From Diphasiastrum complanatum (taxonomy: Eukaryota; Streptophyta; Lycopodiopsida; Lycopodiales; Lycopodiaceae): a stretch of DNA of 64,000 bases. The stretch is from contig CM055095.1 of assembly GCA_029204225.1 (NCBI GenBank), forward strand, positions 40,416,141-40,480,140, written 5' to 3'. Of this stretch, positions 3,209-55,806 are shown in pieces. The first letter of the stretch is position 1, and each line of letters begins with the position of its first letter. Made by a program: the position numbers and the translations under genes. The notes below the pieces were generated by a model that was not told the origin of the DNA, ran no database searches, and was given only the letters and a program-made list of their open reading frames with translations.

Positions 3209-6200
3209 CTAGCTTGGTTCAATCATTGCTTTACTAATCACTCCAAGTGATGATCTGAACTTCATAAAAGGTGTCTTTTGAAGTGGTTTAGTAAGTAGAT
3301 CAGCTACACATTCATTTCTTGGAACATGCTCCAAAGCAATCTCCTTGGCTTGCACCATTTCTCTCACAAAGTGATGGCATATCTCAATGTGCTTAGATCT
3401 TGCATGGAAGATTGGGTTAGATGCAAGGTGTTGGGCTGATATATTGTCATTGTAGATGATTGGTGCCTCCTCTGAATCCATGATCTTTAGCTCCACCAAT
3501 AATCTCTTGATCCAAAGTACCTCCTTTGTAGTGGTTGTCAAAGCTTTGTACTTGGCCTCGGTTGAAGATAGAGATATAGTTTCTTGTTTTTTTGAAAGCC
3601 ATGAAACCACACCTTCTCCTATGAAAGTTGAATAGGCACTTGTTAATTTCCTATCCCTCTTGTCCCCTACAAAATCTGAATCACTAAATGCATGAAGGTC
3701 AATCACATCTCCTCTATATAGAATCCCAAAATCCAATGTACCCGAATGTATCTTAGAATCCTCTTAGCCTTTTTCCAATGGATATTCAATGGCTTTTGCA
3801 TGGATTGGCTCAACCTACATACACTAAAGCTAAGATCTGGTCTAGTTATAGTGATCCACATTAAGAAACCTATAAGTTGCCTAAACAAAGTGATGTCCAT
3901 GAAGGATCTTTCATCACCTTCATTTGGCACTTTTACATCTTGCTCCATTGGTGTGTCAACACTTTTGCATACTTCCATCTTAAACTTCTTCAAAAGACTT
4001 TGAGCATAGTTTACTTGACTTATAAAGATAAGATCAGACCCTCTAAGTACTTCTATGCCTAAGATGAAGTGAAGACACCCTAGATCTACCATCTTGAACT
4101 CTAAGAATAGATCTATCTTGATTTTTTCAATACCATCAACACTATTTTCACTAATGATGATGTCATCTACATAAATGAGTAAAAGTACAATACCAACATC
4201 ATCAAACTGAATGTAAAGAGTGAGATCATATTCACTTTGAACAAAAGAAAGTGAAATAAGATAGCAATGTAGTCTTGAATTCCAAGATCTCGAGGCTTGC
4301 TTCAAGCCATAGATGCTTCTTTGGAGATGACATACTTTGTTCTCCATTCCATGCTTGATGAACCCTTGTGGCTGCTCCATATAGATATCCTCTTCCAAAA
4401 AACCATTCAAGAGAGCATTAGAGACATCCATTTGACATAGAATCGATCCAAAATGTGATGCAAGTGCAATGATTAGCCTTATTGTAACCATCTTGGCCAC
4501 GGGTGCAAAAGTTTCCTCATAGTCTATCCCTCTCTCTTGAGCATAACCTTTTGCAACTAATTTTGCTTTATGTTTGTTAACACTCCCATTTGCATTCAAC
4601 TTAAGCTTGAAGACCCACTTGCATCCTCTTACATTCCTTTGAGGTCTCTCAACAAGCAACCAAGTTTCATTCTCAATCAAGGCATCATACTCATCCAACA
4701 TAGCTTTATACCATTCTTTGGAGTTCAATGCATCTTCAACATTAGATGGTTCTTCAAAACTAGATAAAGCATAAGAAGTGGATGAGATACCCTCAACTTG
4801 CTGTCCTTTGCCTTGATATGTGAGCCTTGATGGCTCCACTTTTGCCCTTGAAGATCTCCTTGGTGTAATAGGTGGGTTTGGTGCTTGCTCCTCCATGAGC
4901 TCCTCCTCAAAACCAAGATCTTGCTCCTCGGCCATCTTCTTCTTGATTGTTGGAGCACTTGAGCCTTCTTCAAGCATATGCATATGATGTTCATCAAAGA
5001 TGACATCCCTTGAAACAACAAATTTGTTCAAGGATGGGAGATAGACTTTGTAGCCCTTGCTTGAGCTTGCATATCCAAGCATGATCCCTCTTGTGGAAGA
5101 TGGATCCTCCTTGGTTCTTGTTTCCAATGGCACATGCACATAACATATACACCCAAAAACTTTCAAGTGATTAAGATTGGGTTTCTTTCCATACAACATC
5201 TCATAAGGAGTTTTGCCTTCAATTGCTTTGCAAGACACCCTATTCATCAAGTAGTTTGCACATACAAGAGACTGACCCCAAAAGGATTTGGGCAAACAAG
5301 CATCTAATCTTAAAGCCTTAGAACATTCACATAATGTTCTATTCCTTCTTTCAGCAACTCCATTTTGTTGAGGAGTGTAAGGACAAGAAGTCTCTTTCTT
5401 GATCCCTTCCTCCTCACAAAAGGCCTTGAACTCATTGGAGATGAATTCTCCACCATTGTCACTTCTAAGAATCTTGATGCTATGATTATGATGCTTTTCC
5501 ACAAACAACTTGAACTTTACAAAAGTGTCAAATACTCGAGACTTGAAGAAAAGTAAGAACACCCAACAATATCTTGAGTAGTCATCAATGAAGGTTAAAA
5601 ACATGGATGAACCTCCATTAGATTTGGTGCTAGCAATGTGCACATCCGAGTGTATGAGTTCAAGAGGATGAGATGACTTTGTGATGGAGTTAGGAAACAC
5701 CTTCTTATGTGCCTTGGATAAGGCACAAGCTTCACAAACCTTGTCTTCCTTCCCAATAGACCTTGGTAGGCCTAAAGCATACTCCTCCTTGATCATAGCC
5801 TCCATGGAACCCGAGTTGACATGTCCAAGTCTTTTGTGCCATAAAGTAAAGGTAGATATCTTGCTCTTCTCGGCCAACATGACAACATTAGTATCCACAA
5901 ATGCATCCAACTTATAAAGTTTGCCAAGTCTAGTGCCCTTAGCCACTATCTTACCCTTCTTCTTGATGAAACATTCATTTGAAGCAAAGTCAACATTGAA
6001 ACCATTGTCTACCATTTGGCCAACACTTAGTAGATTCTTTGTTATTGTAGGAATGTACAAAACACCTTCTATGTTGATCTTTTTGGAAGATCCTAAGCAA
6101 AGGGGAATGCTACCAACTCCTTCAATCTTACAAGCTTCATCATTTGCTGTAGAGATAGACTTTATAGGTCCATCATAAGATAAGAGAGAAGAGAAAAATT

Positions 6201-6336
6201 CTCTTTTACTAGTCATGTGTGAACTAGCACCCGAGTCAATCCACCAAGGATCTTTACCTTTGAAGCTTGTTGAAGAAAATATGGACATCATGAGAGAGTC
6301 CTCATGTGAACTCTCCTCCTCCTCCTCTTTGCTCAT
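3209..6336 (-). pseudogene. Copia C1 pol (protease-integrase-RT-RNase H), frameshifted
   Basis: The frame from 6336 runs 877 codons. It contains the aspartic protease motif WWIDSGASSHM near residue 31, a pre-integrase LWHKRLGH motif near 165, the integrase core (HSDV, DNGGEF, and the E of the NGVAERRNR motif), and reverse transcriptase with LIYVDD. It ends at 3703. The RNase H part continues in another frame at 3736-3209 (AFSDSDFVGD ... STEAKY ... ADLLTKPL), so a one-base frameshift lies near 3730. All enzymatic motifs are otherwise recognisable. Copia polyproteins are normally one frame with gag, so this copy is defective. Confidence 0.9.
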
Positions 6337-6520
6337 GTTGGCTTGGCTTTGATCTTGCTTCCTCTTGAATCATTTTGAGGCATAATGCCCCATCTTGCTA
6401 CAATAGTAGCACTTCACCTTTGATTTGTCCTTCTTGACTTTGGTGGTTGATGGAGATGCCTTTGAGGGTCCTTCTTGATCCTCAAGCTTTGTAGACTTCT
6501 TGAATGTTGATCCAATCTAC
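6337..6520 (-). pseudogene. Copia C1 gag remnant with broken zinc knuckle
   Basis: Only about 60 codons of gag-like sequence separate the PBS from pol. The minus-strand frame reads KVKCYYCSKMGHYASK and then TGA, where the fourth zinc ligand (Cys) of a CX2CX4HX4C knuckle should be, and continues FKRKQ. The capsid/UBN2 part normally found upstream is absent, which implies a large internal deletion close to the primer-binding site. Confidence 0.75.
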
Positions 6521-15567: not shown

Positions 15568-15731
15568 AATGTTCATGAACAACATGAACAATAGGAGAAA
15601 GTCAAACGACACGAAGAGAAAATGTTCGCGACACAACAGGAGTCAAACAATGCGAAGCGACACAAATTTTTTTGTTTTGATCCACGTTTGTTCTGTTCAA
15701 ACTTCTTTTTGTTAATTTTCTTCTTCCGAGA
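15568..15731 (+). promoter_or_regulatory. 5' flank / possible promoter of the H3-Ulp1 gene
   Basis: Only 164 bp separate the end of copia fragment C4 from the H3-like start codon. The stretch is A/T rich with a pyrimidine-rich run just before the ATG (ttcttttttgttaattttcttcttcc). I see no clear TATA box. If the gene is transcribed, its promoter or an upstream untranslated exon may lie within copia-derived DNA. Confidence 0.25.
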
Positions 15732-17841
15732 ATGATGGCCAGGACCAAATGCACCGCCCGTGCCATCACCACTGTACAACCATCCCATTCCTGTATTCCC
15801 CCTGGTATTGGCCGTAGGCATGGCAAGAAGCAAGTCTGGCTGAGGGAGATCAGAAAACTTCAGAGATCAACTGAATTGTTGATCCCTAGAGCTCCTTTCG
15901 GTCGATCTGTATGGAATGTCACTCTGTTATTTGGGCTGGATGTTCCTTTTGTCATGATAGGCATGCAGGCCTTGCAGGGTGCTGCAGAAGATTTTTTGTC
16001 CCAGTTTTTTGAGGATACTTGTCTTTTGGCAGTGCATGGTAAGCGTGTCACCATCATGCCAAAGGATTTTGTCATTCTCAAAAGGCTTCGGGACAAATAT
16101 TCTGGTCTGCATGTTGATAATGTCGGCACCTCCAGAGACCTGCCTCTAGATAGAACCAACGTGCCTATTATCTCTAGGAGGAAGAGAAAGCAGGTTGTCC
16201 CCAAGAAGGCTGAATCTCGAAGGCCAGCTGCTTCCCTTCCTCCTATACATATCTCGGCCAAGAGACCTCGTGTCTTCCTGAGCTCTGAGTCAGATGCTGG
16301 AGAATCTGACTCAGATCGAGAATTTTCACCCAGTCCTCCTCCTGTTATTCGTCCAGCTCCTCAGCAGGTTTCATCACCAAAAGTATTGATTACCCAAGAG
16401 GAGCTAGACCAAATAATAGAGAAATCTGTAAATATTCTTTTCACTTTTGTTTTTGCTCCTGTACATAATGTTTTTGTGAGAATTCCATACGATCCAGCCC
16501 AAGTTTTTTTTTATTCTGACCATTATAATCAATACGAGGCCTACCTAGCTAGCAACATTGATCTTCTTGACAACTTTTTTGATTTTTTTCTTCTAGATAC
16601 ACGTATAAGCTTTAGATTAGGTCCCAAATTTTGTGTCGAGCTAAAAGATAAGACCTCAAAAATTTCAGATGCAATAGTAGAGGCTGGAGTTTCTTTTTTG
16701 CAGAATAGTATTAGTTTCGATTCTCGTGGTACAGTTTTTGTAGTTAGTCCATTTTTCATGGGAGCGATAAAGGCGAAAGAAGCCAATTTTGAGAAGGCTG
16801 TCTATTTTATCGAGTGCAGTCTTATGGCGAAACCTTATTTGATTCCATATGAAAATAAGTAAGGATTGCTCTTTTGTTTTTGTTGCTTTAATCTGGATTG
16901 TTGCATGTGTCATTGCTTTAATAAGAACGGAATTTTTTCATAAATATGAACTTAACAATATTTGTATCTTGGCTGTTGCAGTCGGCATTGGAGCCTAAAC
17001 ATTCTTTTTGTAAAGATAAATAAGGAGGGAGTATCAAATTTTCTATGTGTGAAAATAAACTCAGCTGCAAATACACATAGAGAATTTGATTCTCTACTTC
17101 ATGATGCCGTTCGGGAAATACCGACAACGACAATTTCAATTGGAGATATAACCATTAAATCTCTCAAGGTATATTCAATTTATCTCAGATATGCATGTAT
17201 TTCTTTTTTAATTCAAATGTATCGTCATAGCATAAATAAAATTTCTATCATAATATTACTAATTTTCGTTCTGTATATGTAGTGTGTACAGCAAAATGAC
17301 GTTTTTAGTTGTGCATGGTTCGTCTTGTACAATACGAAGCTATTTTTTGAATGGTATAATTTACAAACGGATGTAGATATTGAAAAGGTAATATTCTATT
17401 CATTTGTAGTTCATTTCATTCTGATTCATATTTTATTACTATCATTGTTTGTAATTTGCTGATTCTTGTGTTTTGTGATGACAGTTCACTCTTGAGCTGT
17501 ATACTCCTGATGATGTATATAGATTTTGGCAAGAGTTAATCAGAACCTTTGCTCAGTACGGTGTAAGCGTTGCACCTGCAATCAAGGGCCCTCAAAAGGA
17601 AGCTGCTCCTGTCTTAACAGCCTTTCAGGTTGTTCAGGATGCAGATATTATTTCATATGATCAAAAAGGAATAAAAGTCCTTCCTAATACAGAGGAAGGC
17701 AATTTTGTAGCAGATATTTCTCTTGTCTTAAAAGGCATTGAGGCCCTTCCCGAAACAAAAGAGGGTGAGATTTTAGAAGGAGCTATTGATTCATCAGTTC
17801 CTAATACTGATATAGAAAATATAGAAAAATTGATTGAATAG
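15732..17841 (+). CDS. Histone H3-like / Ulp1-like cysteine protease fusion, four exons
   Basis: Exons are 15732-16858, 16982-17168, 17283-17387 and 17485-17841, all with GT-AG introns and matching phases, giving 591 residues. Residues 1-123 match histone H3: an MARTK start (second Met), a shortened tail, then LREIRKLQRSTELLIP (37-52), LFGLDVPF loop 1, AAEDFLSQFFEDT (84-96) and KRVTIMPKD (104-112), without gaps against canonical H3 from LREIR to MPKD. A linker holds RRKRKQVVPKK, nuclear-signal-like, and an acidic serine stretch (184-198). Residues about 250-465 resemble Ulp1/SENP: LIPYENNRHW with the catalytic-like His378, QQNDVFSC with Gln442 and Cys448; the usual Asp is probably Asn402. The tail carries two KGI-x-x-LP-x-T-x-EG repeats. 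Ulp1 enzymes remove SUMO-type modifiers; whether this protein enters chromatin or cleaves anything is unknown. Ulp1-like domains also occur in plant MULE transposons, so mobile-element origin is possible. The frame is open while its neighbours are broken. Confidence 0.8.
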
Positions 17842-18203
17842 AGATCTATTTGTAAATCGAGAGACATATAAGAAAAAAGATACAATCATTTTACTTGTAA
17901 GCAACTCGTTTATGGGTTTTTTTTCATTGATATCACAATAGATTCTTACAATCAGCTTGTGTCCATAGTCTAATAATGGAATGCAATTTTTCTATAATGA
18001 TAAAAAGACATTGGCATGTATTTGCCGATAGTGAATCTCAATGTTCTTCCATAAGTTAGAATTAGTACAGAGTTTGTATTAGAAAGTTTTGATTGAAACT
18101 ATTCATAAAAGATCGAGTGTTTAAAGACTTACGAGTTTACCATTGAAAATGAATCTGAAGTCTGAAAGTACATCATCTTGTAGGAGCAATAGTTTCTGCC
18201 GAA
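17842..18203. other. 3' flank of the H3-Ulp1 gene, nothing else seen
   Basis: A/T-rich sequence with no AATAAA signal, LTR terminus or coding motif that I can recognise. It probably contains the 3' untranslated region of the gene. Confidence 0.4.
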
Positions 18204-18913
18204 TGTAGTTTAGACTAGCGTATATGGCGGTCTCCCAACTAGCATGCACTATGGCTTAATCCAACTAGCATGGCTGGCCAAGGGATAGCATGGTGGTGAG
18301 TATTGTGAGGGTAAGATCCACTTTTTCTTGCATAAGCTCATATTGTTGCTAACACAAATGAGAAAATACTATTAAGAAATCCTAGATTAATCACTATGGC
18401 TGCCCCAACTAGTGGCTAAGATTAAATCTAAAGATGAAACCCTAATCTTCCTTGAATCCCAACCCTTAATTTGAGGCATTCCCTTCCAAACTAAGGTGGC
18501 TATCCTATACTCTCTCTTGAGGCTTACCCAACCAAGAGGACACAACTAACTCAATATTAATATATTTCATACAAGATGGGAAGATCCAAAATGTAGAATT
18601 CCTCTACAAGTGTTCGCCTACAAATGAGCTCTCCACATTGACTTATACTTGGAGGCCCTTGTTTTACAAAGAACCGTCAAAAACTTGAAACCTAATAATT
18701 TAGTTAAGTTACAAGCCGTAGTAATTTAAGTACAGAACTAAGTCACTTACAATAGGTTTCATGGGACAAACCCCCAATGGACCATATGACTTATTTTTAT
18801 AAGTTAGGTTCCATGGGACAGACCCCCAATGGACCTAAGCTAGAGTCCCCTTAAATAATATGACTTGAACTAATTTGAATTATCATATGGCTAGAATATT
18901 CATAGGGAATATT
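18204..18913 (-). repeat. LTR-like repeat R1, copy B
   Basis: Starts TGTAGTTTAGAC, includes tatggcggtctcccaactag at 18223-18242, and ends near catagggaatattatcc. On the minus strand both copies start alike (GGATAATATTCCCTATG here, GGATAATGTTGTCCCTTATG in copy A). Its purine-tract side abuts copia fragment C3, not a gypsy body, so the junction is secondary. Confidence 0.4.
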
Positions 18914-54960: not shown

Positions 54961-55477
54961 ATGGAAACATAGAAGCATAGTGTATTGTAGAGGAATAGGT
55001 CAGTTAGAGCTCAATTTTTTCCTTGAGAAAAATCATGAGTTCACCTACCAGTTGAATCGGGTTTGCTATACTAGCAAAAGATGGAGAAAGTGTAGCAGGA
55101 GCCTGATTCTCTCTTTTTTACTTTGGCTCTGATTTATATTTTATATGATATGAAGCCTTTCCAAGCTGATTTTTTCAAAGTTCAATATTGAACATCTAAA
55201 TTAGCATATGTTTTCTGTGGAGTCATAATTATCATATCTGAAATGTGCAAGGAAGTGTATATATGTAAAGTTGCATTTGTAGCTGGTTTCACATGGGTTT
55301 AAACTTTGAAGCAGACACCACTTGAAGCTATATAATGGATTGATGCTAGGCCAGTTCAAATGCTTCAAAATGGGGGAGTAGAAATGCATTGTTATGGCTT
55401 GAAGTGATTCAAACCAGCTTTAGATTGAAACGCTGAAACTTATGATTCAAGAAAAACAAAATGGTGTGTATTTTCAG
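54961..55477. other. 3' end of RBD1 intron
   Basis: Nothing recognised except the acceptor site (tgtattttcag) at its end. Confidence 0.5.
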
Positions 55478-55806
55478 GCTTAGAAGAGCGATTTGCTATA
55501 CGAAATACAGGAAAGTACGAATGCCGTTCTTGTGGGCATGTCTATGATCAATCAGTAGGAGATCCGACATATCCAATTGCTGCAGGGTTGGAATTTCAGA
55601 AATTACCAGATGATTGGCGTTGTCCAACCTGTGGAGCTGCAAAATCTTATTTTAATAGCCTTAGTGTTGAGGTGGCAGGTTTTGCTCAGAATCAAAACTA
55701 TGGCTTGGGTACAAATACATTAACATCAGGTCAAAAAAGTATACTAATCTATGGGTCTCTCATACTGGCCTTCATCCTATTCCTAAGTGGATATTTTCTT
55801 CAATGA
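55478..55806 (+). CDS. RBD1: Plastid rubredoxin, exon 2 (rubredoxin fold and membrane anchor)
   Basis: The exon follows an AG acceptor and encodes residues 98-206. LEERFAIRNTGKYEC leads into a rubredoxin fold with the four iron ligands Cys113, Cys116, Cys146 and Cys149 in CRSCG and CPTCGA, plus the usual YPIAAG and LPDDWRC segments. A linker (VAGFAQNQNYGLG) precedes one hydrophobic helix of about 20 residues (SILIYGSLILAFILFLSGY) ending the protein at FLQ. Plant and algal RBD1 is a thylakoid-membrane rubredoxin needed for photosystem II assembly; the anchor and ligands seen here fit that family. A poly(A) signal AATAAA lies at 55921. An in-frame TTG near 55588 is not a plausible start because the first two iron ligands lie upstream of it. 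Confidence 0.93.

Follow-up and report, generated by a model that had tools for sequence, protein, structure and literature searches.

The 64,000-nucleotide stretch of the Diphasiastrum complanatum genome studied here (the window, C4:40416141-40480140) contains a gene of four exons which encodes, in one frame of 591 residues, a histone H3-like part, a linker, a region resembling the Peptidase C48 (Ulp1/SENP) proteases, and an acidic tail (Table 1). The gene lies in a fragment of a repeated element. Elsewhere in the window, a copia polyprotein frame (3703-6369, minus strand) is open for 888 residues, so the description of every neighboring element as broken, made in the first-pass annotation of this DNA, does not hold. 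Also, an ORF at 55429-55803 (plus strand) has a rubredoxin domain (PF00301, E 8.1e-19) with a hydrophobic end after it; it is apparently a host gene, which we take to resemble plant plastid rubredoxin.

Table 1. Features of the H3/C48-like gene and of the element that carries it. Positions are those of the window unless given relative to the ATG in copy L025.
Feature	Position	Strand	Basis
Element fragment, both ends missing	15663..18216 (~-69 to +2484 relative to ATG)	+	blastn against 20 copies
Exon 1: H3 part, linker, and first half of C48-like part	15732..16858	+	frame, codon composition, copy alignment
H3-like N terminus M-ARTKCTARA, K4 kept, K9 = Ala	15735..15764	+	alignment, copy columns
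Histone H3 fold, residues 28-121	15813..16094	+	Pfam and PDB matches, plant H3 alignment
Basic stretch SRRKRKQ, possible nuclear localization signal	16173..16193	+	position in alignment, motif resemblance
RVFLSSESD, acidic/Ser tail, possible SUMO-interaction motif	16269..16295	+	position in alignment, motif resemblance
C48-like region, residues ~311-473, over exons 1-3	16662..17387	+	PF02902 below threshold, H/Q/C columns
Intron 1, GT-AG, 123 bp	16859..16981	+	unspliced frame reaches TAA at 16860-16862
Exon 2, putative catalytic His378 at 16986-16988	16982..17168	+	frame, copy alignment
Intron 2, GT-AG, 114 bp	17169..17282	+	unspliced frame reaches TAG at 17280-17282 (intron end)
Exon 3, Gln442 at 17292-17294, Cys448 at 17310-17312	17283..17387	+	frame, copy alignment
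Intron 3, GT-AG, 97 bp	17388..17484	+	length no multiple of three
Exon 4, acidic tail and stop codon	17485..17841	+	frame
ORF A	L025, ~-5000 to -2960	+	motifs across copies
Further element ORF	L025, ~-2909 to -1219	-	no credible domain match
Further element ORF	L025, 2417 to 3655	-	no credible domain match

Reading frame and gene structure

The single spliced frame with canonical introns proposed in the first-pass annotation is borne out by the copies of the gene found elsewhere in the genome. All three introns are needed, because the first two would introduce an in-frame TAA and an in-frame TAG, respectively, and the length of the third is not a multiple of three. The donor dinucleotides of introns 1, 2, and 3 recur in 20/23, 21/21, and 17/20 copies and the acceptor dinucleotides in 16/19, 19/21, and 14/20 (23 aligned copies, rows with gaps alone at a site being left out). 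Moreover, the probability that the 375 codons of exon 1 are free of stops by chance is only ~1e-9, and in each exon G+C peaks at codon position 1, as do purines in all but exon 3. The reading frame is real. Since a single exon encodes both the H3 part and the first half of the C48-like part, their fusion in one gene, as first annotated, is certain at the DNA level.

The histone H3 part

Profile searches agree with the earlier description of an H3-like tail and a histone fold. The window protein matches PF00125 (Histone) over residues 28-116 with an E-value of 5.5e-19, over the cut-off, and its best PDB match is an H3 chain (E 6.6e-21), the top PDB chains all being H3. In the fold of the window copy, 46/89 residues are identical to plant H3, including 16/20 in the H3-H3'/L2 segment (residues 104-123), and clustering of the identities within the fold is not significant (permutation p 0.081). 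The alignment with plant H3, considered for a distinction between the H3 and CENH3 types, runs without a gap through loop 1. The AlphaFold2 model of exon 1 is poor (mean pLDDT 41.8), and fold comparison with this model gave no match.

The N terminus is the best preserved portion of the tail. In the window copy, ARTKxTAR is identical to plant H3 at 7/8 positions versus 4/35 across the remaining tail (p 7e-5, gaps counted as differences). For the residue columns, 23 copies were compared (the window, L011, L012, and L014-L033), the commonest N terminus being M-M-A-R-T-K-S-T-A-R-A. K4 is present in 20/22 copies, the K9 position is Ala in 21/23, and residues 7-30 contain no lysine in 21/23; a tail without lysine from K4 to about residue 31 has no counterpart of K9 to K27. 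Thus, the protein shares the ARTK end and the histone fold with canonical plant H3 but differs from it in a shortened, nearly lysine-free tail, in the divergence of the fold, and in the second domain fused to it.

Among the other residues compared, H113 (22/23 copies), K115 (23/23), and D123 (22/23) are kept, R116 is kept less often (18/23), R63 is Pro in 21/23, and Arg is found in 15/23 copies at R72 and in 10/23 at R83. Both of these last positions are changed in the window copy, and neither of its changes is the commonest state. With R63 lost and R83 and R116 partly lost, the DNA contacts of the H3 part may be weakened.

The C48-like part

The assignment of the C-terminal half stays below threshold, and we speak of a C48-like domain only. 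PF02902 (Peptidase_C48) matches the whole window protein with an E-value of 0.098 and the C48-like part alone with 0.022-0.024, the scores of the protein and its parts (12.9-15.0 bits) being below the curated cut-off of 20.7. It is nonetheless the sole family matched in 7/7 sequences, that is, the window and six element copies, with a best E-value of 0.0081 in one of the copies. The catalytic His, Gln, and Cys occur in the expected order (H378 in 18/19 copies, Q442 in 21/21, and C448 in 19/21). These columns and that of the catalytic Asp were assigned by eye against SENP1 and P0002, the latter a protein of 549 residues on an ENA contig of 6349 bp. In that alignment, the putative Asp position is Asn (N402) in 19/21 copies, and an aspartate conserved in 17/19 (D412) is located past it. 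Hence, of the C48-like core initially annotated, the motifs NRHW and QQNDVFSC are indeed present, but the family score and the Asp position do not follow the canonical protease. A PDB search with the C48-like part gave no relative, its hhalign comparison with SENP1 and P0002 gave a Prob of 0.1, and region 225-505 had no match with E up to 10 in the protein database among 884 candidates of similar length.

A repeated element with terminal inverted repeats

The H3/C48-like gene belongs, almost certainly, to a repeated multi-gene element, and we do not regard the window copy as a gene of the host. In the genome searched (1.7447 Gb, 5176 contigs), the window protein matches 208 stretches. From 15053 candidates, 74 exon-1 places were scored, which are 60-85% identical to the window protein, the window itself aside; in 2/74 no stop is listed, and a terminal TAA may be the intron's own. 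The longest blastn blocks between the window fragment and 20 copies with flanks are 86.6-92.8% identical. Sequence common to the other copies extends from 5-6 kb upstream to ~4.1 kb downstream of the ATG, and in copy L025 the element measures 10.2 kb.

The element has the termini CATTAGAGAAA...TTTCTCTAATG. Its outermost 11 bases form a perfect terminal inverted repeat, and further inward the two ends match in part. The left end CATTAGAGAAAATATGGGCCC... was found in eight copies, one of them with a single change (including 5/7 left-end stretches examined), and the right end ...TTTCTCTAATG in 12/21 copies searched, 10 exact and two (L025 and L015) with one change. Tags drawn from the element are abundant: the left-end tag has 929 genome matches (454+475) and the right-end tag 721 (364+357), one mismatch being allowed, and the H3-gene tag has 908 (442+466) with three mismatches allowed, a number that may include a few ordinary H3 genes. 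Reversed control tags had no genome match. The similar numbers of gene tags and left ends suggest that the H3 gene is present in many elements. Also, 11/12 H3 tags have the left end on the same strand at a distance of 3.8-17.8 kb upstream; these tags were hand-picked for a left end listed near by and are no sample.

No target-site duplication was found in any of the six copies with both ends (0/6). For two of them, the flanks, once joined, align with copia proteins with no gap where they meet; therefore, insertion there neither gained nor lost host bases. At the L031 site, a distant copia (window 24957) aligns with gaps and a closer copia without. CATG was rejected as insertion target, because four added bases would break the copia frames at these two sites. 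Helitrons have ends of the form TC..CTRR between A and T, and such ends were likewise rejected here, since CA and TG are part of the element. For a copia or LTR origin of the gene, no long direct or inverted repeat pair was found around it in the window, where the ends of the element are missing.

Two copies (L028 and L021) have retroelements with LTRs of ~0.67-0.70 kb inside or beside them, indicating nested elements. The end tags also form clusters near contig middles: at least 17 exact right-end tags lie within 1.8 Mb at C1:48.43-50.24 Mb, and at least eight exact left-end tags within 0.56 Mb at C4:42.32-42.88 Mb. Among the matches listed, the opposite end does not reach equal density there, so end fragments seem to have been amplified, perhaps near centromeres.

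Other open reading frames of the element

Upstream of the H3 gene, ORF A, which appears to contain an intron, has at least 150 genome matches. Its motifs LKLD, GDLKTL, CLYC, and HICTLH are conserved among the copies with a match (6-12 copies), the residues concerned being D (6/6), D (8/8), CxxC (10/10 and 8/11), and Hx4H (10/11 and 11/11). An H3 gene stands beside ORF A in 1/3 ORF A copies checked, and other repeats are found there in 2/3. In L025, minus-strand ORFs flank the H3 gene on both sides.

Neither ORF A nor the element ORF pieces gave a relevant Pfam transposase or PDB match; no hAT or DUF659 domain was found in the 14 element ORF pieces scanned, in whose broken frames a piece may be missed, and the scanned pieces likewise gave no match to a MULE transposase. 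The CMCT group comprises EnSpm/CACTA, Mirage, Chapaev, Transib, Plavaka, ESTA, and Lanisha. A report on these transposases gives D, D, C(2)C, and H(3-4)H as their residues, termini CA..TG, and target-site duplications of 2-5 bp (PMC12730594). ORF A resembles them in having D, D, C(2)C, and H(4)H in this order, as does the element in its CA..TG termini; however, its target-site duplication is of zero bp (0/6 copies) and no Pfam transposase is matched. Since ORF A has no Pfam or PDB support and its last acidic residue is unplaced, we note the CMCT resemblance and do not file the element in a class. The lack of a target-site duplication is shared with Spy (PHIS) transposons, whose preferred site is AAATTT (PMC4482050), but none of the six insertion sites of our element is AAATTT.

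Selection and decay

The window copy shows no purifying selection. Its 24 private coding changes comprise three synonymous changes, 21 replacements, and no stop, with a neutral expectation of 2.39 for N/S and of 0.029 for the fraction of stops, i.e. ~0.7 stops. The absence of stops versus ~0.7 expected means that the open frame needs no selection, and this copy has lost sequence at both sides; an open frame, treated earlier as the mark of a functional gene, does not have that meaning here.

A different picture is obtained for the family. Variants were compared in 21 aligned copies, leaving out L011 and L012, where the sequence ends early, and five regions were tested; 'shared' denotes a variant in at least two copies, which recurrent mutation or kinship of copies can also produce. 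In the H3 part, replacements are depleted among the shared variants (S39:N57) compared with singletons (S20:N84), with p=0.0011, or p=0.0010 when CpG changes are left out. The corresponding values for the C48-like part are not significant (p=0.083, and 0.29 when they are left out), and the same test shows no selection in linker and tail. This supports the view that the H3 part was under selection in the active family; for the C48-like part, selection is unproven. The comparison of dN/dS between copies suggested in the first-pass annotation, made on pairwise sums, gives a mostly neutral-looking 0.75 overall and 0.94 for the tail, but 0.59 for the H3 part. Introns diverge no faster than exons, so that most differences between copies look like post-insertion decay.

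Comparison with known systems

The architecture of H3 joined to Ulp1, thought at first to have no reported counterpart, is not unique. P0002 combines PF00125 (9e-42) with PF02902 (6.5e-23) and has the same order of H3, linker, and C48 domain; unlike the window protein, its H3 is near-canonical and its protease canonical, SENP1-like, and intact-looking. By BLASTP, P0002 and the window protein are significantly similar in the H3 part only, and hhalign does not support the C-terminal half. Without meaningful similarity there, the fusion in P0002 is probably independent. Moreover, PF02902 was found only in P0002 among the best 120 of its 2889 relatives, and the H3-Ulp1 architecture thus probably arose more than once. 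A database search with the whole window protein returned seven matches, P0002 among them; all have a histone domain, and each aligns with 15-25% of the window protein. A scan of genome contigs with P0002 identified five loci, all with the H3 part only and on contigs labelled bacterial; three H3 genes on contigs labelled bacterial MAGs (L001, L002, and L003) are probably eukaryotic contamination. The viral collections yielded no confirmed relative of P0002 or exon 1, and no H3-Ulp1 fusion is named in the open-licence literature among the matches listed.

Histone H3 carried by a transposon is already known. The accessible text on Dothideomycete fungi describes ~9.5 kb TIR hAT transposons that captured and multiplied histone H3, with 471 H3-carrying elements in Pseudocercospora fijiensis (133 full length, all inactivated) and many potentially active copies in Pyrenophora tritici-repentis; these elements have a plain H3 coding sequence in one or two copies and 8-bp target-site duplications, and in that text it is not claimed to have a role for the element (PMC6710886). 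The lycophyte element is likewise a TIR DNA transposon with a multiplied H3, but it differs in the altered H3 tail, the C48-like fusion, the termini, the transposase motifs, and the absence of an 8-bp duplication (0/6). What is new, then, is the fusion of H3 to a C48-like part, the altered tail, and the element. As for the second domain, in non-TIR MULEs of Arabidopsis (Kaonashi, KIU), a transduplicated Ulp1 (C48) gene is one of three genes (Hoen et al. 2006, as related in PMC13317346), which sets a precedent for Ulp1 on a transposon. The Diphasiastrum element is also a plant DNA element with a gene of C48-like type. It differs in that H3 is joined to the C48-like part, in its terminal inverted repeats, and in the lack of a MULE transposase match in the ORF pieces scanned.

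Possible roles of the fused protein

The reading that we prefer, in confidence evenly poised, is that a family of multi-gene DNA transposons carries the H3/C48-like gene as an accessory gene acting on chromatin, the copy in the window being dead and truncated at both ends. It comes close to an alternative raised in the first-pass annotation, a transposon-encoded protein making use of host nucleosomes; membership in an element was found, and entry into nucleosomes is what we infer. A real but lesser possibility is that H3 and C48 pieces were captured as passengers and multiplied with the element, the fused protein being useless to it. The mostly neutral-looking divergence, lowest in H3 but close to one in the tail, and introns that change no faster than exons fit this explanation, which has precedents in the captured and inactivated H3 of Pseudocercospora fijiensis (PMC6710886) and in the transduplicated Ulp1 pieces of plant MULEs (PMC13317346). 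Knowledge of the fungal elements reduces the novelty of our finding and somewhat favors this passenger explanation. However, several observations speak against useless cargo: the depletion of replacements among shared H3-part variants (p=0.001), the similar numbers of gene tags (908) and left ends (929), and a frame still open and spliced in spite of a fold only about half identical to plant H3.

It is unlikely that the protein served as a histone decoy, in which the ARTK end would bind H3K4 readers or writers and the C48-like part would bind SUMO without protease activity, the H3 part never being in nucleosomes. The contrast between ARTKxTAR and the remaining tail, the Asn at the Asp position, the loss of R63, and the weakening of R83 would suit a decoy, but the H3-H3' and L2 residues, needless for a tail decoy, are mostly kept in the window copy, and H113, K115, R116, and D123 are kept across the copies. 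That the window locus holds a functional host gene, a domesticated H3 variant acting as a deSUMOylase, is highly improbable: all four exons are open there, but the private changes (21 replacements to three synonymous, no stop) show no purifying selection and only ~69 bp of the element are left upstream. We rejected this reading on account of these changes and of the truncation. It is scarcely conceivable, finally, that the gene model is an artefact joining H3 and C48-like parts of separate transcripts, given the single open exon of 375 codons that holds the H3 part and half of the C48-like part, and the layout and splice sites common to the copies.

For an accessory chromatin gene of this kind, we tentatively propose an anti-silencing mechanism, although we regard it as doubtful. 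The active family would have produced the fusion of an H3-like protein with a C48 (Ulp1/SENP)-like domain. Supposing that the protein was expressed and reached the nucleus, its H3 part, which could not take K9/K27 silencing marks, would enter nucleosomes or compete with them, either at the element or where the host establishes silencing, and its C48-like part may remove or bind SUMO on silencing factors, the protein overall acting as an anti-silencing device. The fullest form of this proposal, which we consider a slighter possibility still, is that the transposon encodes its own silencing-proof H3, with K4 kept and K9 and the other tail lysines up to the alpha-N helix lost, together with a SUMO-protease-like domain, and so would protect the chromatin of the element from H3K9/K27 methylation and SUMO-dependent silencing.

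Transposons are silenced via histone H3 marks, and some of them carry anti-silencing enzymes or regulators; the regulator of Vandal elements is VANC. Genes with an effect on silencing that transposons are described to carry include a Vandal-encoded regulator, SET in HarbingerS, and TET/JBP (PMC12730594). The Diphasiastrum element would resemble these systems, including TET/JBP in fungal elements, in its proposed accessory gene acting on silencing, but it differs from them in that the accessory protein itself contains a histone. If the proposal is true, an element spread to hundreds of copies would escape silencing more directly by means of an H3 that lacks the silencing lysines and has a SUMO-protease-like domain joined to it, and the residue pattern makes this idea testable. 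Also, the element would add a lineage with terminal inverted repeats and without target-site duplication.
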